Below, piece after piece: positions 1,720 through 15,930 of a stretch of 15,930 nucleotides of DNA. A model generated the notes under the pieces. The model saw only the letters and a program-made list of their open reading frames with translations, was not told the origin of the DNA and did not search any database. Origin of the DNA: a bacterium. Lineage in GTDB: Bacteria > UBP7 > UBA6624. The stretch spans positions 1 to 15,930 of the forward strand of contig JACNFQ010000065.1 of the NCBI GenBank assembly GCA_014384545.1, in the 5' to 3' direction. The stretch's first letter is position 1; every line of letters starts with the position of its first letter. The translations under genes were made by a program, and so were the position numbers.

Positions 1720-2277
1720 ATGAGTACAAAGACCGAGCCCGCGATCAAGAAAGAGATGACGATTGGAGATATCCTTTCTACCTATCCCTATGCTGCTGAT
1801 GTCATGACACGACACGGCATCCATTGTGTCGGTTGTGGAGCAGCGACTTTTGAGACCCTTGAACAGGGGTTGGCTGTCCATGGGAAGACGACTGAAGAAC
1901 TAGAAGCGCTCGTGGATGAGTTGAACGCTTTGGTCCTGGAAATGGATGGTGCCCTGTTCGTGATTACAGAGCGTGCTGCACGCATCATTTTGGATGTCAT
2001 GAAAGAGGAAAGCCCAGAGGCAAGTTTCTTGCGTATCAAAATAGTCCCGGGTGGCTGTTCTGGATTCCAGTATGAGTTTCTTTTTGAAGAGCAAGCGTCT
2101 GAGGAGGACACCTTGATTGAAAAGGATGGTCTACAAGTTGCCTTGGGACCACAGACATTGCCTTTGATTACGGGGTCCAGACTCGATTATGTGATGGGTG
2201 TCCAAGGGTCGGGGCTAAAGATCCATAACCCGAACGCCTCAGATGCCTGCGGGTGTGGCAACTCGTTCGGAGGGTAG
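1720..2277 (+). CDS. Fusion of DUF1858 redox-disulfide domain with A-type iron-sulfur carrier (IscA/ErpA/HesB family)
   Basis: This 185-residue protein has two domains. Residues about 12-72 match the DUF1858 / 'hybrid cluster protein-associated redox disulfide' domain: MTIGDIL, YPYAADVMTRHGIHCVGCG, then ETLEQGLAVHG, with the CVGC disulfide at C36 and C39. Residues about 80-185 are an A-type carrier: ITERAA at 82, VPGGCSGFQYEF with C113, and a C-terminal CGCG with C177 and C179. These are the three cysteines that hold a cluster in IscA/ErpA/SufA. The C-terminal domain is family-length and complete. A-type carriers accept or deliver [2Fe-2S]/[4Fe-4S] clusters; the N-terminal disulfide could supply or sense redox state (inference). 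The ferredoxin gene follows after 9 bases, so its cluster may be a client. Start ATG has an AGGAGG ribosome binding site. The fusion is in one uninterrupted frame. Confidence 0.9.
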   Translation: MSTKTEPAIKKEMTIGDILSTYPYAADVMTRHGIHCVGCGAATFETLEQGLAVHGKTTEELEALVDELNALVLEMDGALFVITERAARIILDVMKEESPEASFLRIKIVPGGCSGFQYEFLFEEQASEEDTLIEKDGLQVALGPQTLPLITGSRLDYVMGVQGSGLKIHNPNASDACGCGNSFGG

Positions 2278-4522: not shown

Positions 4523-7234
4523 TTACCTGAGTGTTCCCATGATGGGGTTGTAGGACCAATCGTTGTCCCAAAAACCTGCCCCCAATAGCCCACCAGCACC
4601 CAGCCAACCAAAGTCGGAACCCAAGACAAGGTAGTCTGGAATGGTCGTTCCCGAAGCGCTGGGAAACACCTGAAATGTCTTTCTGAAACCCTCCTCATCA
4701 GTTCCAGCCAGAACGAGAGCAAGTTGGGATTCCCCCTTCGCTCCTTGGGGGATGGGTGCGAGGAACTGAATCCCCGTTTGAGGGGTATTGAATAGACGAT
4801 CTCCAACGATGAAGTGCCGTCCCTTGAAGAGGACGGGAAAAGAGGGAGAAAGGCGGGCAGATAGGGAGTTGGTAGAAGGTCCCCCAACTAAGATAAAGTT
4901 TTCGTCCCATTGAGAGATATCTTGGATGGCAGTATCGGGTTGAACCGATGTCTGTCCCCTGCTTCTCAGATACCAGTCGTTAGCTAGCCAAACGGCTTGA
5001 GTTAGCCGCGAGCGCGTTTCCTCGGTCGTTCCCATCGTGCCGTAGACAATCAAGAAGGGGCGTTCAAGGACTTGTCGAGCAGGTCCATATCGCCCTTTTC
5101 CTCTTTGAGTTTTTCGTTCTTCCATCTGGGCTTGTGTGCAGATCTCCCAACTCTGAACATGGCAGAAGGTCGTTGGGCTCGTCATGTGGAATAGATCGCC
5201 ATCGATTTGAATCTCGCGGGGCAGTCTGTTGTGCGTAGACCAAGACCCTCCTCCAAAGGTCATCGTCCGAATATTCTCCGTCGATAAATCGAGGAGAGGA
5301 CCAACCTGATTGGCATGGATTCGCCCCACCCTGTAGGGAATAATCAGCTGATTGACAGAAACTCCTCCTTTGGATTCCATAGATGCGGGGTTGAGAAGAG
5401 TCAGGGTAAAGGAGGGAGGAGAAGGGGGAAAACCGTTCTGGAACCTGGAAAAGAAATCTGACATCTCTTCATCATCCGCAACGCCTGTCCACCAATGCCC
5501 TTTCCCTGGAATCTCCGAAAGAGTGGCGTCAACTCCAAATCCTTCCAGAATGCGTACCATGCGTCGAAGATGCCAAGGAGGCACATTGTCGTCATCACCT
5601 CCCGTTCTCCCTAAGAAAGGAATACCGACCATATTCGTCGCATAGAGGTCGTTGTCATGTTCCGAAATCGCTGACTCCAAGATTCCCCTAAGTGTGGGGT
5701 CTACGAAACTATCTCCAAGACGGAGGAAGTAGGGGAGATAATGTTGGAACTTGATCCACCCTGCGGCTGGTGCTGCCAAGAGTGCACGGTCAGGATACCG
5801 CAAAGAGAGGCTCATTGCCCCATGCCCTCCCATAGAGTGTCCCGCAAAAAGAATCCTATGGGGGTCGCCTTTCTTTCCATCAAGAGCTGTCGCTCTGTTC
5901 AGGATGGGGGAGGGGAGGGCGTAAGGGGCCTGGAGTGCGGTGAGACGCCCAGGACCTTCCCAATCGTAACCAAATCTTCGGCGACCGGTGGGGGTCAATA
6001 CCCACAGGTCATCCCGTGAGCGGTAGACATCCGCTTTGTTTTCGGCACGAACCCCTGCGCCATGTGTGGACAAGAGAACAGGGCAGCCCCAAACTTCAGG
6101 AAAGCCATTGGGGTCGTAGGGGCAAGAACCCAAGGGGGCTCGCGCCCCTGCATATTGAACAGAGCGGTCGTATCCCAAGAAGGTAAACTTGAAGGATTGG
6201 TCAAGGGTACGACAACGGAGTTTGACCGAATGGCGTAGGGGAGAAATCTCCTGCGCATGGACCACAATCGTAAAGGTCAAGGGGCAAGAAGATTCGTCCA
6301 CGGTGATTCGCTCTCGGGAAAGAGCCTCATCAACCAATCTGTTCAGTCGCACCACCAAGGGAAATGCTTGACCAGGTGCTAGGTCAGGAGCTGGACCGCA
6401 CCTCCCTAAGATTTCACACGTAGAGGCAAGGGAGAAGGGAGCGTCTTCAAGAGAGACTTGAATCCCTCGAATCCAACGATCTGTTGTATTCAATAGAGGA
6501 ATAGACAGCCAATCCGAAACCAACTCCCCCTCCAAGATATCAGGCAGCGTATCATCTCCGGGTAATACAAAAAGGGGAGGAGGAGGCTCCTTGAACGAGC
6601 AATGGAAATGATCAGTTGTGAGTCCACCAATCTTGACACGAATCGTATGTGTCCCAGCTGTCAGGTGAACAGGGAACCAAGCATACCCATCGCCATAACG
6701 GTCTCCAGGAACACGAATGTGGTCGACAAAGAAAGAGCCTGTGGACAGACAACGAGCCAGATAGGTGCCGTTCTCTCTAACGGTAAAATCGCCCAAAGCC
6801 CATCCCTGAAAGAGAATGCCTGCTGTCCCATGGGCTTCTTCCAGAGGTTCCCATCTGATTTCGGGGAATGAGAGCGAAAGAGAACCGTTTTCATTCGCGT
6901 CCACCTCACGCCAACCCACGCGACCACCATCTGCCAACTCGCTCGGGTATGTCAAATCACCACCTCGGGGGATGCCTTCAATGCCTCCATAAGCCTCTAG
7001 GGGGTCTGCCCCCAACTCTCTGGCACCAAGAGGAAAGGGTCCCAAGATATCCCAAGTTGTGGGTGGAATGGGGTAGGGGGGTAATGGCAAAACCTCCACG
7101 ACAGGGGGGGGTGGGGATACATAACATCTTTGGATGGGGTTCCAGACAGCATCATCACTCTTCACTTCAAGGCAAAGGGGAAGCAGAAAGAGAAAGGCAA
7201 CCATGAAGGCAAGTCTAAATGGTGATAGACTCAT
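4523..7234 (-). CDS. Large exported alpha/beta hydrolase (prolyl-oligopeptidase/esterase-like serine hydrolase)
   Basis: 903 residues. The N-terminus (MSLSPFRLAFMVAFLFLLPL) is a signal peptide, followed by a Pro-rich stretch at 40-58. Residues about 60-345 form a beta-rich region with jelly-roll/PA14-like features (FFVDHIRVPGD, LTAGTHTIRVKIGG). The catalytic domain (about 350-605) has strand CPVLLSTHGAG, the nucleophile elbow FAGHSMGGHGA with S467, GGDDDNVPPWHL with acid D547-D549, and GKGHWW with H580. A C-terminal module (about 725-890; FLIVYGTMGT, FILVGGPSTNSLS, ALVLAGTDEEG) resembles tails of bacterial and fungal S9-like hydrolases. Eleven cysteines after the signal peptide suggest disulfides outside the cytoplasm. 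Substrate unknown: peptidase or esterase. A C8 tract (coding strand; 7104-7111) encodes Pro residues just after the signal peptide. Start ATG 7232-7234 is the only one giving a full signal peptide; its ribosome binding site is poor. Confidence 0.85.
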   Translation of the reverse strand: MSLSPFRLAFMVAFLFLLPLCLEVKSDDAVWNPIQRCYVSPPPPVVEVLPLPPYPIPPTTWDILGPFPLGARELGADPLEAYGGIEGIPRGGDLTYPSELADGGRVGWREVDANENGSLSLSFPEIRWEPLEEAHGTAGILFQGWALGDFTVRENGTYLARCLSTGSFFVDHIRVPGDRYGDGYAWFPVHLTAGTHTIRVKIGGLTTDHFHCSFKEPPPPLFVLPGDDTLPDILEGELVSDWLSIPLLNTTDRWIRGIQVSLEDAPFSLASTCEILGRCGPAPDLAPGQAFPLVVRLNRLVDEALSRERITVDESSCPLTFTIVVHAQEISPLRHSVKLRCRTLDQSFKFTFLGYDRSVQYAGARAPLGSCPYDPNGFPEVWGCPVLLSTHGAGVRAENKADVYRSRDDLWVLTPTGRRRFGYDWEGPGRLTALQAPYALPSPILNRATALDGKKGDPHRILFAGHSMGGHGAMSLSLRYPDRALLAAPAAGWIKFQHYLPYFLRLGDSFVDPTLRGILESAISEHDNDLYATNMVGIPFLGRTGGDDDNVPPWHLRRMVRILEGFGVDATLSEIPGKGHWWTGVADDEEMSDFFSRFQNGFPPSPPSFTLTLLNPASMESKGGVSVNQLIIPYRVGRIHANQVGPLLDLSTENIRTMTFGGGSWSTHNRLPREIQIDGDLFHMTSPTTFCHVQSWEICTQAQMEERKTQRGKGRYGPARQVLERPFLIVYGTMGTTEETRSRLTQAVWLANDWYLRSRGQTSVQPDTAIQDISQWDENFILVGGPSTNSLSARLSPSFPVLFKGRHFIVGDRLFNTPQTGIQFLAPIPQGAKGESQLALVLAGTDEEGFRKTFQVFPSASGTTIPDYLVLGSDFGWLGAGGLLGAGFWDNDWSYNPIMGTLR

Positions 7235-7717: not shown

Positions 7718-8788
7718 CTAGGGGTCCCACCGCTCTCCCAAAACGACGCTCTTTCTTGCCCCTGTGGTTTGGGGCAAAGAGAGGGGTAAAGCGTGATAAG
7801 CGCCTTGTGCGAGATGGGCAAAGAGGATTCCTTCTCTTGCGTCCCCCCACGGGTCTTTGGTGATAGAAGGTAGTCCCAAACGATATAAGAGGGCTCGGCA
7901 TAGACCTTCATTCCTAGCCCCCCCTCCTGCAAGAACGACTTCTTGTGGGGGTGTAGGACAGTTCCTCTTTACCCAATCCCCAACTTGGGTTGCTATGAGC
8001 CGGGCAGCCGATGCCAGAGCGTCCATTCTTGTCAGATCATTCAGCGATTGAATCGTCTGTTCTTTTTCCGCAATCCAAGCGGATGTATGGGTGCTCTTTG
8101 GTGGTGGCAACTTCAAGAAAGGGTGGGCTAGGAGGGGAAGGCGACGAGGATCTTGGGCACGCCCTCTCGCAGTCTCTTTTCCCCCACGATCGAATGCTCC
8201 ATCTCCCCCATGGGCTTTCCAAAGAGAATCAAGGAGATCGTTGCAGAGACCGATATCCGAGGCAACGAGCGCGTCCTCTTTGGGAGAGAGAAAGGTGCCA
8301 TTCACGATCCCCCCCAGATTCAAACGGAGTGTGGGAGGTGCAATCTCATCAAGTTGGTAATGGTCAAGGATAGGAGCTAAGGGCGCTCCTTGACCCCCAG
8401 CGGCAATATCTCCATTCCGAAAGGCACTCCAAACGGGCAACTTCGTCATCTTGGCAACGAGAGAAGGATTCCCTACTTGGAGTGACCAACCCAAATCGGG
8501 TCTGTGAGCGGCGGTCTGTCCATGGAAACCAATCCCTTGGACATCATGTTCTAAGAGAGCCTCCAGAGCGACTTCTCCAAACTGGATGCCCATCTTATTC
8601 TCTAGTTTCTCATCTCGATCCGATGGCGTGGGGGAGGTCGCTTGGTAAGCTAGGAAGTCTTCCTTGAGTTTCGGGTGCCAAGGTCGATGAATGTGGTTGA
8701 GTACAGTCGCTTTCTTGAGCGGAACCGTTACGACAGCTGTAATGCCATCCATACTCGTTCCTGACAAGAGACCCATCCACGGTTTCAA
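7718..8788 (-). CDS. anmK: Anhydro-N-acetylmuramic acid kinase (AnmK)
   Basis: Cytoplasmic kinase that opens the 1,6-anhydro ring of anhydro-MurNAc and phosphorylates it to MurNAc-6-phosphate with ATP, in peptidoglycan recycling. The 356 residues carry the AnmK signatures in order: GLLSGTSMDGI (6-16), GIGFHGQTAAHRP (86-97), VWSAFRNGDIAAGGQGAPLAP (119-139), LRLNLGGIVNGTF (155-166), ASDIGLCNDLLDSLW (177-190), LPPPKST (227-233), MDALA (255-259), AGGGARN (287-293) and GDAREG (315-320). D178 is the likely catalytic base by position; the usual 'DxGPxN' around it reads DIGLCN, so Gly-Pro is changed to Gly-Leu. Length is slightly below the usual 365-385. The start overlaps the murQ stop by 4 bases (ATGA), so the two are translated together and supply consecutive steps. 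Confidence 0.95.
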   Translation of the reverse strand: MKPWMGLLSGTSMDGITAVVTVPLKKATVLNHIHRPWHPKLKEDFLAYQATSPTPSDRDEKLENKMGIQFGEVALEALLEHDVQGIGFHGQTAAHRPDLGWSLQVGNPSLVAKMTKLPVWSAFRNGDIAAGGQGAPLAPILDHYQLDEIAPPTLRLNLGGIVNGTFLSPKEDALVASDIGLCNDLLDSLWKAHGGDGAFDRGGKETARGRAQDPRRLPLLAHPFLKLPPPKSTHTSAWIAEKEQTIQSLNDLTRMDALASAARLIATQVGDWVKRNCPTPPQEVVLAGGGARNEGLCRALLYRLGLPSITKDPWGDAREGILFAHLAQGAYHALPLSLPQTTGARKSVVLGERWDP

Positions 8789-9609
8789 GAAGAAGACCCT
8801 AGGAGCTTAGATAGACCGTCACAAGCCAACCTCTTACGCGCCTCTTGGGGGGAGAGCCCCAAGTGGTGAATGACCAAAGCACAGTCCACTTCACCCCCTG
8901 AGGACTTGAGTAGAGCGATCGCTTCATCGGAGGTGGTGCCCCCAAGAGTTCTTACCAGTTCTTGGGCACGGAGACGGAGTTTTTCGTTTGTGCCCACAAC
9001 CTTGACCATGCGGTTCTGATAAACAGCACCCGTATGGGCAAAAGCCGCCGTAGAGAGAGCGACCATCACGCTACGAGTAGCACTCGCAGCCGCCATTCGG
9101 GTGCTCCCCCGCAGCCACTCTTCTCCGGTATCTATCACCACAGGGTGGTCAACGACCCTCGATAGAGCGCCTTGTTTGGTTGAAATACATCCCGTAGTAC
9201 AGCCGTTTCTCTTCGTCGTTTCAAGGGCAGAGAGAGTCCATGGGGTGGAGCCTGAAGCCGCAATTCCAATCGCCAAATCTCCTTCTTTTCCGCCCCATTC
9301 AGAAGCGACTCTTGCTCCGTCTATTAGGTCATCTTCTGCCCCTTCTTGGGCATGGGAAAGAGCGGCTATTCCTCCTGCGATAAACGCCTTTACTGTATCA
9401 GGATGTGCGCCAAAAGTGGGAGGGAGTTCAGCGGCATCAAGGAGAGCTAGTCGACCACTTGTACCAGCACCAAATAGAGCGATTCTCCCTCCTTTTTCAA
9501 GGGTGGAGTGGTAGGCAGTGGCGAGTTTTGACAGGGCAGGTATTACATCGATGAGGGCATTTCGGGACTTCCTTTCAGCGTTCAGAATACTCATAAGGTC
9601 CTTTTCCAT
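8785..9609 (-). CDS. murQ: N-acetylmuramic acid 6-phosphate etherase (MurQ)
   Basis: Cleaves the lactyl ether of MurNAc-6-phosphate to give GlcNAc-6-phosphate and D-lactate, the step after AnmK. One SIS domain with family motifs: GGRIALFGAGTSGRLALLDAAELPPTFG (40-67) with catalytic-site E61, HAQEGAEDD (86-94) with E92, GIAASGSTPW (115-124), EEWLRGSTRMAAASATR (163-179) and the C-terminal MVKVVGTNEKL. Its 274 residues are short because the usual opening of about 25 residues (TExRN...LD) is missing; the frame has a stop just upstream of 9609, so this is real in the given sequence. Start ATG 9609 lacks a Shine-Dalgarno but lies 7 bases after a -10-like TAGAAT, fitting a leaderless mRNA. ATG 9594 has AAAGGA in front and is the alternative. 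First gene of the murQ-anmK operon. Confidence 0.95.
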   Translation of the reverse strand: MEKDLMSILNAERKSRNALIDVIPALSKLATAYHSTLEKGGRIALFGAGTSGRLALLDAAELPPTFGAHPDTVKAFIAGGIAALSHAQEGAEDDLIDGARVASEWGGKEGDLAIGIAASGSTPWTLSALETTKRNGCTTGCISTKQGALSRVVDHPVVIDTGEEWLRGSTRMAAASATRSVMVALSTAAFAHTGAVYQNRMVKVVGTNEKLRLRAQELVRTLGGTTSDEAIALLKSSGGEVDCALVIHHLGLSPQEARKRLACDGLSKLLGSSS

Positions 9610-9646: not shown

Positions 9647-11186
9647 CGGAAAAGTCTCTCTCCTTTTACTTGAATTGGCAAATGGACGAGAAATCAAAGG
9701 AGAAAACCCTTTTCGTGTACGAGCGCTACGCAAGGGAGCACGGTTGATTGGAAAATGGGAAGGGGACTTGGGGGAATGTGAAGACACTACAGTTTTGCCG
9801 GGAATAGGACCCTCCATGTCCGCCATGATTGAGGAAGTGAAGAAAAGCGGTGTCATTTCCCAGTTGGAGCGTTTGAGGGATGAGATTCCTAGTGGGGTTT
9901 GGGATCTACTTTCGATTCAGGGTATTGGACCATCCACTGCCGGAAAGCTGTGGCAAGAAGGCGTTACAGACCCGACGATCTTGCTGGAGATGTTAGAGAG
10001 CGGAGATTTGAGGAGCGTGAAGGGGACTCGTCGTTCCTTGGTGTTAGAAGGGCTCAAGCACCATTTTCTATATAAGGGCTCCTTCTTGAGGTCGGATGCT
10101 CTCAAGCTTCTTGAGGCGTTTTCCCAGGCACACCCAGAGTGGCAGATCTCTCCATCGGGGGGGTTTAGGCGTGGGCAAGAGGTCTTGGACCATATCCCTC
10201 TGTTGGTCTTGAAGGAGGATGGGGTGTCAGAGGCACTGTCCCTTCTCTTTGGGAATCCCCTCAGTCAGGGTCAATTCGAGGGTCGGTGGGGCGATCGCCA
10301 CTTCTTGATTAGATTGGCAAATCGCCAAGAGTGGGGGCGGGTTTCCATTGAGGAGAGTTCTACACCTGAGCATTTAGAGGGACTCCTATTGAGGGATGGT
10401 CAAACAGAGGAAGAGGTTTACAGGTTAGCTGGATCACCCTATTGGCCACCGGAACTCAGAGGTTATTCTCGTTCTCTCTATCCCAAAGGTCCTCCCAAGT
10501 TGGTCAAAGAAAAGGACATTCTCGCAGACTACCATACCCATACCCGTCAAAGTGATGGTCGTTCGTCTCTCCCAGAGATGGTGCACGCCGCTGCCCAGTG
10601 GGGGCACCGACGCGTAGCGATTACCGATCATAGTCAGACAGCTGGGTATGCTGGGGGACTAAGCCCCGAGAGTTTGTTGAGACAGCGTGAAGAGATTCGT
10701 CAGGGAGATTGGCCCCTTGAAGTGTGGGCGGGTACCGAGAGTGATATCTTGCCTGATGGTTCACTAGACTACAAAGACGACCTCTTAGCAAGACTAGATT
10801 GGGTAGTGGGCTCTATTCATCAGGGTTTGAAAGGAGACCAAACAGAGAGGGTCTTGGAGGCTCTGGATAACCCCCATCTGAAAGTTCTAGGACACCCAAC
10901 GGGACGAAGATTGTTACTTAGAGACGGTTTTTCGTTAGATTGGTCTAAGGTGTTGCCCAAGATGGCAGAAAGGGGAATCGCACTTGAAATCAATGGAAAC
11001 CCCGAGCGTCTTGATGCCGAGGCTGATGTCGCCAGAGAAGCATCAAGAGAGGGTGTAAAGATCGCCTTGGGGACAGATGCTCATCACACCAGCCACTTCG
11101 CTTTGATGTCATTTGGGGTGACCCAAGCACGACGAGCGGGTCTGACCAAAGATAATCTCTTGAATACCACCCTAGAATCCCACTGA
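9636..11186 (+). CDS. polX: PolX-family protein: degenerate DNA polymerase X with intact PHP phosphoesterase domain
   Basis: 516 residues. The N-terminal 8-kDa-like domain (NPFRVRALRKGARLI, 24-38) and helix-hairpin-helix motifs LPGIGPS (54-60) and IQGIGPS (94-100) are typical of bacterial PolX (about 570 residues). In the palm, SGGFRRGQEVLDHIPLLV (174-191) aligns with the canonical GSxRRxKExxxDxDxxV, but the two metal-binding Asp read H186 and P188. The third Asp (VDxR) is replaced near LIRLAN (224-229). The thumb motif TGSxxHN is absent and the region is shortened. The PHP domain (about 296-516) keeps its metal sites: H300/H302, D307, D331/H332, E368, H395, H420, D481/H483. Likely a 3'-5' exonuclease or AP-endonuclease-like enzyme without polymerase activity (inference). 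Start ATG lacks a ribosome binding site and may be leaderless. The stop overlaps alaS (TGATG). Confidence 0.9.
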   Translation: MDLNGKVSLLLLELANGREIKGENPFRVRALRKGARLIGKWEGDLGECEDTTVLPGIGPSMSAMIEEVKKSGVISQLERLRDEIPSGVWDLLSIQGIGPSTAGKLWQEGVTDPTILLEMLESGDLRSVKGTRRSLVLEGLKHHFLYKGSFLRSDALKLLEAFSQAHPEWQISPSGGFRRGQEVLDHIPLLVLKEDGVSEALSLLFGNPLSQGQFEGRWGDRHFLIRLANRQEWGRVSIEESSTPEHLEGLLLRDGQTEEEVYRLAGSPYWPPELRGYSRSLYPKGPPKLVKEKDILADYHTHTRQSDGRSSLPEMVHAAAQWGHRRVAITDHSQTAGYAGGLSPESLLRQREEIRQGDWPLEVWAGTESDILPDGSLDYKDDLLARLDWVVGSIHQGLKGDQTERVLEALDNPHLKVLGHPTGRRLLLRDGFSLDWSKVLPKMAERGIALEINGNPERLDAEADVAREASREGVKIALGTDAHHTSHFALMSFGVTQARRAGLTKDNLLNTTLESH

Positions 11187-13711
11187 TGAAAGGGTTGGAG
11201 ATTCGAAAGAGGTTCTTGTCCTATTTCCAGGCTCGGGATCATCTCGTTGTTCCCTCCTCTCCCTTACCCCTAGAAGGCGACCCCACGCTTCTTTTTACAG
11301 CGGCTGGTATGGTTCCCTTTAAGAGCTATTTCTTAGGGATTGAGAAAGCACCCCATCCTCGGGTGACGAGTAGTCAGCGATGTTTGCGTACGGTGGATAT
11401 TGACCAAGTGGGAAAGACGCCCCGCCACTGTACCTACTTTGAGATGCTGGGTAACTTCTCCTTTGGAGATTATTTCAAGGGACGAGCGATTGATCTAGCT
11501 ATGGGGTTCTTGACTGAAGAGTTGGGTTTATCCCCGCAAGATCTTTGGGTAACGGTACACGAAGATGATGAAGAGAGTGCCCATCTTTGGTTAGAGGAGA
11601 GGGGATTTCCTGAGAGTCGGTTCGAGCGGTTGGGTCAAGATAACTTCTGGAAAATGGGACCGACTGGCCCTTGCGGACCCTGTTCGGAGATCTTTTTTGA
11701 CTTTGGGACAAAAGGGCTAGAAAGCGAGAAACCCTCAGATGGAGGTATGAGGTTTATGGAGATCTGGAATCTCGTCTTCATGGAGAGCGAGAGGCAAAGT
11801 GATGGTTCGTTGGTTCCCTTGCCTAGGAAGAGTATTGATACAGGGATGGGGCTAGAGCGAATCACAGCAGCTTGCCAAGGAACTTCTTCTGTTTTTGATA
11901 CGGACCTCTTTGAAGATTTACGGGGCGTTGTGACCGAGAAAAGTGAAAAGGATATTCCTGAGAGTTCCCGCGTGGTCATGGACCACATGAGAGGAGCGAT
12001 TTTTGCGATTTCTGAGGGCGTGATGCCTTCAAACATTGGGCGAGGGTATGTCTTGAGACGGATGATACGGCGGGCGATTCGAGCCGGAAGACATTTAGGT
12101 ATTGAGGGCAGATTCTTAGGGGCATTGGTTCCCCCTGCGTTGGCACCGTACCAGGGGGAGGTTGATGCCGAAGGGTTGTCTAGGGTGATAGAGGGAGAAG
12201 AGGACGCTTTTATGAGAGCTATGGGGAAGGGTGAAAGAGAGCTTGAGAGGCTTTTGTCTCAGTTGGACGAGGGCGAAGAGACTCTATCTGGGCAAGCAGC
12301 CTTTTCTCTCTTTGACACTTTTGGACTCCCCTTTGAAGCGACAGAAGAAGCGTGTGGGGCAAGGGGATTGTTGGTTGATAGAAAGGGTTTTGAAGAGGCG
12401 ATGGTGCTTCAAAGGAAGAGGTCTCAGGCAGACAGACGAAAAGGGGGTGAGGGATGGATCAAGGTGGGAAAGGGAGGAAAAACCACCTATTTACGAGATG
12501 GGGAAGAGGCAACCTCAACCGTCTTGCGGGTTGACAAGAAAGGAGATAGGGTGCGCGTCGTTGTAGGCGCATCTCCCTTTTATAGAGAGGGAGGTGGGCA
12601 AGTGGGTGACCAAGGTGAGATTCTTTCCCTAGAGGGGAAGAGGCTCGTTGCTGTCACGAATACCGTTCTTGACAGGGGGGAGGTTTTTCATGAAGGGAAG
12701 CTTAGAGGGAAGATTGAGCCTGGAGAGGAGGTAAGGATGGTGGTGGAGAGAGCGAGTTCTTTGGGTTGTAGGAGGGCGCATACTGCGACCCATCTCCTCC
12801 ACGCCGCTCTCCGAGAAACCTACGGAGAGGGAGCAAGCCAGAAGGGTAGTCTTGTGGAAAGGGATAGATTGCGGTTTGATATTGCATTGTCTCAAGCACC
12901 AACGGACAAAGAAATCGCCGATTTGACAAGGCGGATTGGAGGTTGGATTGGTGGGGATGATTCGGTTGAAACGACCGAAATGACGATTGATGAAGCGCGT
13001 GCTTCCGGGGCGATAGCGTTATTTGGCGAAAGGTATGGGGAGAGGGTTCGGGTGGTCAAGATTGGTGGTTATTCCATGGAGCTTTGTGGCGGAAACCATC
13101 TTTCCAGCACAGGTGCCGTGGGTGGCTTTATCTTGACAGGGCATGCGGCCGTGGCACAAGGGGTTCGACGCTTTGAAGCGGTTACCGGCGAAAAAGCCCA
13201 AGAGGTAACTTCAGCGTTGTTTGGGGATTTCCAAGAGATGGGGCGTCGATGGAGTGTGGGAATTGAGGATGTGCCTGCTCGGGTACAGGTATTGGAGACT
13301 CGGCTAAGAGAGGCTGAGAGTGCTCTAGCCGCCATCAAGTCAACGGGAGCAGGAAAAATGGCGAACGAGTGGGTAAGCGAGGGGGTGGGTGTCGGGGAGA
13401 TCGTCTTCGTTTGTCAAGAAGTACCGTCCGAAGATCTGTTGCCGTTGGGGAAGGCGATGGGTGGGCGGGAGGATTCTGTGGTCGCATTGCTCGTATCTCC
13501 AGAGGGAAAGAGAGTGAAATACTTGGTTGTAGCGACTCAAGCGGCACAGGTCTTGGGCGCCAAGGCTGATCTGTTATTGGGGCTGGTAGCACCGACTTTC
13601 GGGGGAGGAGGAGGTGGGAACTCTGGGTTGGCTCAAGGGGGGGGAGGAGGATGGAAGGGGCTGGAAGAGGGGAGAGAGTTGCTTAGGGGGGCACTGAGGG
13701 AGATTCGTTGA
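11186..13711 (+). CDS. alaS: Alanyl-tRNA synthetase
   Basis: Class II synthetase charging tRNA-Ala, 841 residues (Escherichia coli 876). Catalytic core: motif 1 region PSSPLPLEGDPTLLFTAAGM (23-42), CLRTVDIDQVGKTPRHCTYFEMLGNFSFGDYFK (66-98), GPTGPCGPCSEI (158-169), WNLVFME (194-200) and motif 3 RKSIDTGMGLERI (214-226). The tRNA-binding helical region follows (about 265-460). The editing domain has the zinc/metal set H532-x3-H536 and C634-x3-H638; the loop reads CGGNH, where CGGTH is usual. The C-Ala domain is present (about 735-841) and ends in two Gly runs around NSGLAQ, one on a G8 tract (13637-13644). The ATG shares its first base with the polX stop (TGATG) and has no Shine-Dalgarno, so it depends on coupling. 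ruvX overlaps its end. Confidence 0.97.
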   Translation: MKGLEIRKRFLSYFQARDHLVVPSSPLPLEGDPTLLFTAAGMVPFKSYFLGIEKAPHPRVTSSQRCLRTVDIDQVGKTPRHCTYFEMLGNFSFGDYFKGRAIDLAMGFLTEELGLSPQDLWVTVHEDDEESAHLWLEERGFPESRFERLGQDNFWKMGPTGPCGPCSEIFFDFGTKGLESEKPSDGGMRFMEIWNLVFMESERQSDGSLVPLPRKSIDTGMGLERITAACQGTSSVFDTDLFEDLRGVVTEKSEKDIPESSRVVMDHMRGAIFAISEGVMPSNIGRGYVLRRMIRRAIRAGRHLGIEGRFLGALVPPALAPYQGEVDAEGLSRVIEGEEDAFMRAMGKGERELERLLSQLDEGEETLSGQAAFSLFDTFGLPFEATEEACGARGLLVDRKGFEEAMVLQRKRSQADRRKGGEGWIKVGKGGKTTYLRDGEEATSTVLRVDKKGDRVRVVVGASPFYREGGGQVGDQGEILSLEGKRLVAVTNTVLDRGEVFHEGKLRGKIEPGEEVRMVVERASSLGCRRAHTATHLLHAALRETYGEGASQKGSLVERDRLRFDIALSQAPTDKEIADLTRRIGGWIGGDDSVETTEMTIDEARASGAIALFGERYGERVRVVKIGGYSMELCGGNHLSSTGAVGGFILTGHAAVAQGVRRFEAVTGEKAQEVTSALFGDFQEMGRRWSVGIEDVPARVQVLETRLREAESALAAIKSTGAGKMANEWVSEGVGVGEIVFVCQEVPSEDLLPLGKAMGGREDSVVALLVSPEGKRVKYLVVATQAAQVLGAKADLLLGLVAPTFGGGGGGNSGLAQGGGGGWKGLEEGRELLRGALREIR

Positions 13712-14088
13712 AAGTCTTAGCATGCGATACGGGGACAAGGCGTCACGGCTTTGCTCTTTCGGATTCAAAGGGGCTATTCGTGGTCAGGACTTGGACAGCG
13801 GAGGCGGGGGAGAAACCCGAAAAACCGATTCTGGAATCGGCCAAGCGAGAAGGACTATCCGAAGTCGTATTGGGATTGCCCTTGACGATGTCGGGTACAG
13901 AGAGTGATCAATCCGTTTGGGTTCGGGCGTTGGGAAAGTCTATTGAAGAGGGGGGTGTTGGGGTCTGTTGGGTCGATGAAAGGCTAACGACGCCTGCAGG
14001 AGTAAGAGGTCCCAAGCGGGATGAGTGGGCAGCAGCAACGATCCTTGAAATCGCCTTACAACAGAGAAGAGGAGTTAGGGGGGGCTAG
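13708..14088 (+). CDS. ruvX: Putative pre-16S rRNA nuclease / Holliday-junction resolvase-like protein (YqgF/RuvX)
   Basis: 126 residues with an RNase H-like fold. MKVLACDTGTRRHGFALSD gives catalytic D7 (usual DPGxxRxG), EVVLGLPLTMSGTE (52-65) the second motif, WVDERLTT (88-95) the third, and D105 in KRDEWAAATILE the last carboxylate. Family members mature 16S rRNA 5' ends in Escherichia coli, and a resolvase role has been proposed. Between DERLTT and the final Asp only nine residues remain instead of about twenty, so a variable helix is shortened. Start TTG 13708 overlaps the alaS stop (TTGA) and has GAGGGAG 5 bases before it. An alaS-ruvX neighbourhood is common in bacteria. The gene ends in CTAG shared with the convergent antiporter stop. 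Confidence 0.92.
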   Translation: MKVLACDTGTRRHGFALSDSKGLFVVRTWTAEAGEKPEKPILESAKREGLSEVVLGLPLTMSGTESDQSVWVRALGKSIEEGGVGVCWVDERLTTPAGVRGPKRDEWAAATILEIALQQRRGVRGG

Positions 14089-15029
14089 GCAAGACCAGCA
14101 GCTAAGAATCCGAAATATCCGACAATCGCCAACCCCCCCAAGATGCGCTTGAGGGGTTGGCTCGCTTTCGTTCCCGCCAAGAAAACCGCAGTCGCCAGAA
14201 AGGCCCACAAAGTGGAAGGGAGAAAATTGGGCATGGCCACCGCACCTCCGAATGTGACTGCGGGTAGAGCAACGAGGGGATTGACGACATTGCTTCCTAG
14301 GATGTTCCCCTCCATCACTTGGAAACTCCCCTTGCGCAGAGCAGCAACGACGACAGCCAGTTCTGGAAGGCTCGTTCCCAAACCTAATATAGCACCTGCA
14401 GCGATTGCCCCTAAGCTCGTTTTCTCCACCCACAATAAAGCTCCATTTACGCAGTAAACACCCCCAATCCACATCAGCCCCCCCCCTACCAAAAGGACAA
14501 GGACAGAAACCGCTGTAGGGGTCTTAGAGAGAGCACGCTCTTTCCTCTCTTTTCGTTCGGCCCAAGCGTACACAGAAAAGTGACGCATGGTCATGATCCA
14601 AATACCCACCAAGATGAGCGCTTCAAAGGAGTTTAGGACACCATCTTTAGCCAATCCGTAGGTCATAAAGGGAGCCAGAAGTGCCATATAGGAACTCGGG
14701 CGAAAAACCCGCTTTTTTGAGAGCCCATAGACAAGAGCAATCCCCCCAATGAGGAGGGCATTTGCGACATTGCTTCCCATGACATTCCCCACAGCGACCC
14801 CTGCAGCGTTGTGGGGCGTATCGATGGGCCATTGGTCAGGAATCTCCCAACCGGCAACAGCGTTCGTAAAGATCTCTGGGAGACTCGTCAAGAGTGCTGT
14901 CAGCGTCAGCCCCACAACACGGCGAGCAATCCTAAGGCGCTGGGCGAGTTGCTCTGATGCCCAAATCGCCATTTCCCCCCCAAAAAAGAGGAGAAGAACC
15001 CCCGCAGAAATGAGGAGAATAACGCTCAT
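14085..15029 (-). CDS. Sodium/calcium antiporter (CaCA superfamily, YrbG/CaxA-like)
   Basis: 314-residue inner-membrane exchanger with about ten helices and the two inverted alpha repeats of the family. Repeat 1: GLTLTALLTSLPEIFTNAVAG (40-60) and VAVGNVMGSNVANALL (78-93), with E52 and N88. Repeat 2: LGLGTSLPELAVVVAALRKG, then EGNILGSNVVNPLVALP. The two Glu in 'TSLPE' and the 'GNxxGSN' motifs build the ion sites, so Ca2+ efflux coupled to Na+ entry is the likely function. An insert of about 15 residues (WEIPDQWPIDTPHNA) separates the halves of repeat 1, longer than usual. A G9 run (coding strand, 14478-14486) encodes Gly residues in a middle helix. Its ATG overlaps the stop of the upstream CCA-like gene by one base (TAATG), so the two are co-transcribed. 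Tail-to-tail with ruvX. Confidence 0.93.
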   Translation of the reverse strand: MSVILLISAGVLLLFFGGEMAIWASEQLAQRLRIARRVVGLTLTALLTSLPEIFTNAVAGWEIPDQWPIDTPHNAAGVAVGNVMGSNVANALLIGGIALVYGLSKKRVFRPSSYMALLAPFMTYGLAKDGVLNSFEALILVGIWIMTMRHFSVYAWAERKERKERALSKTPTAVSVLVLLVGGGLMWIGGVYCVNGALLWVEKTSLGAIAAGAILGLGTSLPELAVVVAALRKGSFQVMEGNILGSNVVNPLVALPAVTFGGAVAMPNFLPSTLWAFLATAVFLAGTKASQPLKRILGGLAIVGYFGFLAAGLA

Positions 15030-15930
15030 TACTCTTGGTGCTTTCGAACAAAAACGCGTGCTTCACTTTCGGAGTTCACCTTGCCTTCTACTTGAGCATC
15101 AAGGAGTTTCTCCAAAACCCTCCCCACTTCCGGGCCTTCATTCCACCCCATTTCAATGAGGTCGGTCCCCGTCAGGAAAGGGGTTGGATGAGAGATAAAT
15201 GGCTCTCGAAATGCAGCACTCAAAATGTGGTGATGAATCCGATGGTGCCTTGGGTCCAAAATCTCTGAAGCGATCGGTTCAGGATACCCTTTGGCATCCG
15301 AAAGATCCAGAAGAACTAAGGGGATGGCGAGTGCTCCAGTCGCCTTGAAATACCGCCTAAGGGCTTTCTTGGTGGGAATCCCTGTAGGACCTGAAATCTG
15401 GGCTACGCGCAGATGGAGAGAGATGAGTGAGAGCACTTCCTTTTTTTCACGGGAGGAAAGGGCAAGGTCGCTAAGTGCATTTTCCACAAGTCGCTCACCT
15501 CCTTGAGGGTGTTGGGGATAGGTGCGCTTCCCCTCCTGGAGTTTGAGGGTAATAGGCTTCCCGATATCGTGGAGGAGGGCACCTAAGTACCAATGCCAAG
15601 GAATGGGGGTGTTCTCCTTCCAATCTCTAAAGTATTCGGTGAATTCAGGGAAGGAAGAGCTGGGGTCAGTGAGGGTGTTGAAGAAGTTCTCTGAAACGGT
15701 GTAGGCGTGTTCCTCTACCGAGAAGTCGTCCAATATTCCTGCAGGTGTCGTTCTAGATTGTTCCCAAGGAAAGAGCGCATCCAAAACACCACTCTTGCCC
15801 AAATGGCGACCAAAGCTGGGTGAAGCGGGGAATCCCTTAGCCATTTCATGACGAATCCTCTCTCCAGAAGTAGCCACAAGGTTGGGTGATTCGTGGCGGA
15901 AGGCATCCCAAATCTCTGGTGTCGCCGTCA
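15029..15930 (-). CDS. cca: CCA tRNA nucleotidyltransferase (HD-containing, class II), C-terminal part; gene continues beyond the window
   Basis: The minus-strand frame is open to the window edge, so the N-terminal nucleotidyltransferase head is not visible; GTG 15877 is only an internal codon. About 299 residues are present. The opening EIWDAFRHESPNLVATSGERIRHE matches the neck region (VSxERIRxE) of class II CCA-adding enzymes and poly(A) polymerases. Counting from the codon at 15877, an HD phosphohydrolase domain follows: EEHAYT (H57), LLHDIGKP (H103, D104), YPQHPQGGERL (H123) and SLHLR (H155). The end, LIEMGWNEGPEVGRVLEKLLDAQVEGKV, is the typical C-terminal tRNA-binding module. The full enzyme adds or repairs the 3' CCA of tRNAs; the HD domain can give 2',3'-cyclic phosphodiesterase/phosphatase activity. 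Whether the catalytic head exists cannot be judged here. Confidence 0.88.
   Translation of the reverse strand, partial: TATPEIWDAFRHESPNLVATSGERIRHEMAKGFPASPSFGRHLGKSGVLDALFPWEQSRTTPAGILDDFSVEEHAYTVSENFFNTLTDPSSSFPEFTEYFRDWKENTPIPWHWYLGALLHDIGKPITLKLQEGKRTYPQHPQGGERLVENALSDLALSSREKKEVLSLISLHLRVAQISGPTGIPTKKALRRYFKATGALAIPLVLLDLSDAKGYPEPIASEILDPRHHRIHHHILSAAFREPFISHPTPFLTGTDLIEMGWNEGPEVGRVLEKLLDAQVEGKVNSESEARVFVRKHQE

Follow-up and report, generated by a model that had tools for sequence, protein, structure and literature searches.

The window, which is the whole 15,930-nucleotide stretch of contig JACNFQ010000065.1 that was analysed, carries polX, alaS and ruvX/yqgF one after the other on the forward strand (Table 1). 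The top NCBIfam match of the 516-residue polX product is the PolX model PRK08609 (E 1e-92), with a score of 311.6 bits that lies below the model's own naming level (cut-off 426). The best sequence matches in the PDB are the PolX proteins of T. thermophilus and D. radiodurans. Pfam places HHH_8 and PHP above threshold on the protein, and DNA_pol_B_thumb as a sub-threshold fragment only. The domain order (8 kDa, HHH, palm, fingers, PHP) matches that of PolX in the Pfam results, the PDB matches and the structure model.

Table 1. Features of polX and of the two genes that follow it, with positions in the window
Feature	Residues	Positions	Strand	Basis
polX, noncanonical PolX, 516 aa		9636..11186	+	ORF; NCBIfam; PDB matches
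8-kDa N-terminal helix-hairpin-helix domain (HHH_8)	9-72	9660..9851	+	Pfam PF14716, E 3e-14
Second helix-hairpin-helix	90-130	9903..10025	+	Pfam PF14520, 22.7 bits, below gathering score
Palm motif GGFRRGQEVLDHIPLLVL	175-192	10158..10211	+	Alignment (n=109); beta strand 187-192 in model
DxD replaced by H186 and P188, RR178-179 retained	186, 188	10191-10193, 10197-10199	+	Alignment (n=109)
Position of third catalytic Asp, L224 (FLIR for VDLR)	224	10305..10307	+	Alignment; beta strand 221-228
Degraded dNTP-binding motif EESSTPEHL (for YFTGSxxHN)	239-247	10350..10376	+	Alignment
Fingers truncation, H246 to P271 (25 residues, median 47)		10377..10448	+	Spacing comparison
PHP nuclease domain	298-512	10527..11171	+	Pfam, alignment
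alaS		11186..13711	+	TIGR00344, E 2e-210; shares 1 base with polX stop
ruvX/yqgF		13708..14088	+	PF03652, E 1e-16; shares 4 bases with alaS

Only three genomes of this phylum-level group, the window's included, were among those searched, and polX is present in all three. A single-protein scan of genome contigs found no relatives, whereas a four-protein profile did. The order polX-alaS-ruvX is identical in the window and both relatives, and a calcium/sodium antiporter gene lies beyond ruvX in all three. Co-transcription of polX, alaS and ruvX is plausible, given the overlaps of one and four bases and the gene order kept in both relatives.

Divergent from polX, at a distance of 26 bases, are murQ and anmK (window 8785-9609 and 7718-8788, reverse strand), for anhydro-muramic acid recycling. 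In both relatives this place is taken by a glycoside hydrolase that resembles GH20 hexosaminidases (judged by eye), encoded on the polX strand. The 903-residue product of 4523-7234 (reverse strand) is probably secreted and has an apparent alpha/beta-hydrolase core (GHSMGGHGA); such a protein is also encoded near polX in both relatives. At the contig end, a CCA-adding-type tRNA nucleotidyltransferase is cut short to its C-terminal HD part (15029-15928, reverse strand), and it is full length (455 residues) in both relatives. The gene at 1720-2277 (forward strand) appears by eye to fuse a DUF1858-like N-terminal domain to an IscA/HesB-type iron-sulfur carrier (ending CGCGNSFGG), and is followed by a ferredoxin gene.

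The palm string SGGFRRGQEVLDHIPLLVL was found in the 516-residue ORF. The alignment comprises 109 PolX proteins, gathered from 60 genomes and from public genomes with names. Here the canonical GSxRRxKETVxDxDxL pairs without gaps with GGFRRGQEVLDHIPL, placing H186 at the first catalytic Asp and P188 at the second. Both Asp of the DxD motif are thus replaced in the correct register, as the original prediction had it. The VDLR of the third position aligns with F223-L224-I225-R226, and the absence of the third Asp at VDxR is borne out by L224. The triad is therefore H/P/L, with acidic residues at none of the three catalytic positions. A canonical PolX has three catalytic acids in the palm and an altered PolX has at least one replaced; in the window protein all three are replaced.

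The dNTP-binding motif TGSxxHN of canonical PolX had been reported as missing from this protein. It is present in place but degraded: the position reads S241-S-T-P-E-H246-L247, the YF steric-gate pair is E239-E240, and the spacing from the third Asp position to the motif His is 22 residues, equal to that of every canonical protein. A degraded motif with a hydrophobic residue at the Asn279 equivalent, here L247, is a typical trait of altered PolX. The predicted net loss of about 55 residues is close to the 58 counted against the canonical median of 574, but the palm (about 7) and fingers (about 22) hold only around half of it. The rest has gone in small pieces from the linker between hairpin and palm, from PHP loops and from the C-terminus. 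Truncation of palm and fingers is common in altered PolX and not universal.

Two PolX from the genomes searched, L008:1489-3108 (the same gene as L036:5989-7608) and L035:2224-3837, have an intact D/D/D triad and TGS, with the motif Asn changed to Thr. Their palm and fingers are also shortened, with 87 residues from RR to PPE versus about 120. Since all double-truncated PolX in an earlier survey had altered triads (PMC9226535), these proteins may be an intermediate, where the shortening is judged without the domain boundaries of that survey.

The PHP domain retains all nine metal ligands of B. subtilis PolX (H300, H302, H332, E368, H395, H420, E451, D481 and H483), which form the intact HHHEHHEDH site of altered PolX. 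With HHH_8 and the sub-threshold PF14520 match, this agrees with the claim that helix-hairpin-helix motifs and PHP ligands remain. The DNA-path residues R424, R429, N453, R458 and R500 correspond to R469, R474, N498, R503 and K545 of B. subtilis PolX (PMC6616362). The position of B. subtilis Phe440, a residue proposed to help in AP-site recognition, is occupied by L398, and Leu is found in both relatives too. Leu or Met stands at this position in 12 of the 109 aligned PolX, the window family included. Because changing Phe440 to Ala in B. subtilis PolX severely impairs every one of its nuclease activities (PMC6616362), nuclease strength, AP-site cleavage or substrate range may differ in the window protein.

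An AlphaFold2 model built from 84 sequences has a pLDDT of 96.2 and a pTM of 0.92, and replaced a model from 4 sequences whose palm was of low quality (pLDDT 76). Over its full length the 84-sequence model matches the PolX of Thermus and Deinococcus. VIA-align gives Z 43.8 and rmsd 4.3 over 505 aligned residues with T. thermophilus PolX (3au6), and Z 40.1 over 443 with D. radiodurans PolX (2w9m), where the rmsd of 10.9 probably reflects domain movement. The expected beta strands of the palm are formed (187-192 and 221-228), and when read with the alignment they carry no Asp at the catalytic positions. The catalytic acids are hence absent from the palm, in line with the original prediction.

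Both relatives have lost the triad Asp too, with C/E/K in their place. Their truncations are those of the window protein. The residue changes and truncations are real and inherited in the lineage. For the pair of close relatives, dN/dS comes to 0.15 in the HHH part and 0.21 in what remains of palm and fingers, against 0.057 in PHP (Fisher p 0.0007 for palm versus PHP). The palm remnant diverges about three-fold more than PHP, a ratio reached by none of 26 canonical pairs of similar distance, which share sequences and are non-independent. Constraint on the palm is relaxed, yet a dN/dS of about 0.2 means that it is still under purifying selection, which fits a structural remnant.

In a tree built without the palm and fingers columns and with D. 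radiodurans left out, the three phylum proteins share one long branch that lies apart from the rest of the sampled PolX. A common group with the clade containing the Bacteroidota-type altered PolX is rejected (p-AU 0.03, and 0.002 with altered rows alone), and one with the Poribacteria-type altered PolX (p-AU 0.33) or with L008/L035 (p-AU 0.25) is not, in tests whose groups were picked after the tree was seen and which involve long branches and several rows of unusual composition. The window lineage probably lies outside the main noncanonical PolX cluster. Since the Bacteroidota-type grouping is rejected and the other two are not, an independent loss of the polymerase in this lineage is possible.

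The loss of the triad and dNTP motif, the truncated palm and fingers, the complete set of nine PHP ligands and a palm that evolves faster than PHP together support the proposed conversion to a nuclease that does not polymerise. We are confident that the protein is a noncanonical PolX that has lost its polymerase and keeps the PHP domain as a 3'-5' exonuclease, and the nuclease-only reading is very likely. By analogy with homologues, polymerase activity is probably absent, 3'-5' exonuclease activity probably present, and the role probably one in repair. With the two-metal site and the dNTP pocket gone, the Pol-beta-like core probably could not polymerise and would persist as a folded DNA-binding module of two helix-hairpin-helix elements and the palm remnant. 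This module may present 3' ends or damaged DNA ends to the C-terminal PHP domain, which would trim them as a metal-dependent (Mn-type) 3'-5' exonuclease. Filling of the gap would fall to Pol I, which all three phylum genomes encode. The window's genome also has an endonuclease IV-type (AP_endonuc_2) protein.

Some polymerase activity might survive if nearby acids (D185, E182, D220) or a shifted register provided an alternative metal site for weak, perhaps Mn-dependent, synthesis. D185 immediately precedes the first catalytic position, and D220 precedes the third by four residues. However, the alignment runs without a gap from RR178-179 to P188, which speaks against a register shift that would rescue an Asp, and no aligned canonical protein needs such a shift. 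The dNTP motif is lost as well, and the relatives differ in residue at all three triad places. The PolX of D. radiodurans (triad AEE) and D. gobiensis had no polymerase activity when tested (PMC9226535). Residual synthesis is thus very unlikely.

The truncations and L398 in place of Phe440 could also be read as decay of the whole protein, with PHP inactive too and the gene heading for loss. This is slightly less probable still, and was rejected on the full-length ORF, the complete ligand set, the low PHP dN/dS between the relatives, and the gene and its order kept in all three phylum genomes. With a draft genome split into 107 contigs, assembly or sequencing error was considered for the substitutions. 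A frameshift or sequencing error was rejected on the reading frame, which is continuous and aligns with the relatives through the region, and on two independently assembled relatives that also lack the triad Asp, with C/E/K and the truncations; error or chance is the least probable of the alternatives, and extremely so.

A nuclease-only PolX remains the preferred reading. An end-joining link has been proposed for altered PolX. No Ku and no LigD polymerase domain turned up in the three phylum genomes, which are 62-86% complete, and the link is not supported here. It is a tentative proposal, on the doubtful side, that the PolX polymerase was inactivated in an undescribed phylum by an event separate from the main Bacteroidota/Deinococcus one, without Ku/LigD and with Leu for Phe440. 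If true, this would point to a narrower 3'-end trimming nuclease outside end joining. The loss may have recurred in an undersampled phylum, perhaps without end-joining genes, which would suggest uses of the nuclease beyond NHEJ.

Noncanonical PolX are a published class. Prostova et al. (2022) described 809 prokaryotic members (given as 27.5%) in which at least one catalytic acid is missing. Palm and fingers are often shortened in these proteins, and 98% retain the PHP consensus; Deinococcus PolX was shown biochemically to degrade DNA 3' to 5' and not to polymerise (PMC9226535). A 2026 survey found the same trend, along with PolX-like proteins that have no polymerase region at all (PMC12926913). 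The nuclease-only class thus already has biochemistry behind it (PMC9226535), and the window protein is a further example. It leaves the current picture of PolX unchanged, and adds a poorly sampled lineage to the documented trend that in bacterial PolX the nuclease is better conserved than the polymerase.

With the noncanonical PolX (PMC9226535; D. radiodurans 2w9m) the window protein shares the domain order, an altered triad, a degraded dNTP motif with a hydrophobic residue for Asn, truncated palm and fingers and the intact PHP site. It differs in its triad (H/P/L, versus AEE in D. radiodurans), in standing apart phylogenetically from the sampled Bacteroidota-type proteins, in the Leu at Phe440, and in that Ku/LigD were not found. 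The Ku/LigD association is a statistical tendency of noncanonical PolX and does not define them; likewise, the main altered clade holds most members and belonging to it is not required. Fold, domain order and PHP ligands are also those of canonical PolX (B. subtilis YshC; T. thermophilus 3au2/3au6). The window protein has none of their three catalytic Asp, is without the TGS and Asn of their dNTP pocket, and is shorter by about 58 residues. The PolX-like proteins of Actinobacteria also have a PolX-type PHP without polymerase function, but no polymerase region, whereas the window protein keeps a palm remnant (PMC12926913). E. coli YcdX (1m65) has a similar PHP domain (Z 26.8) and, unlike the window protein, is a stand-alone PHP without the DNA-binding core.
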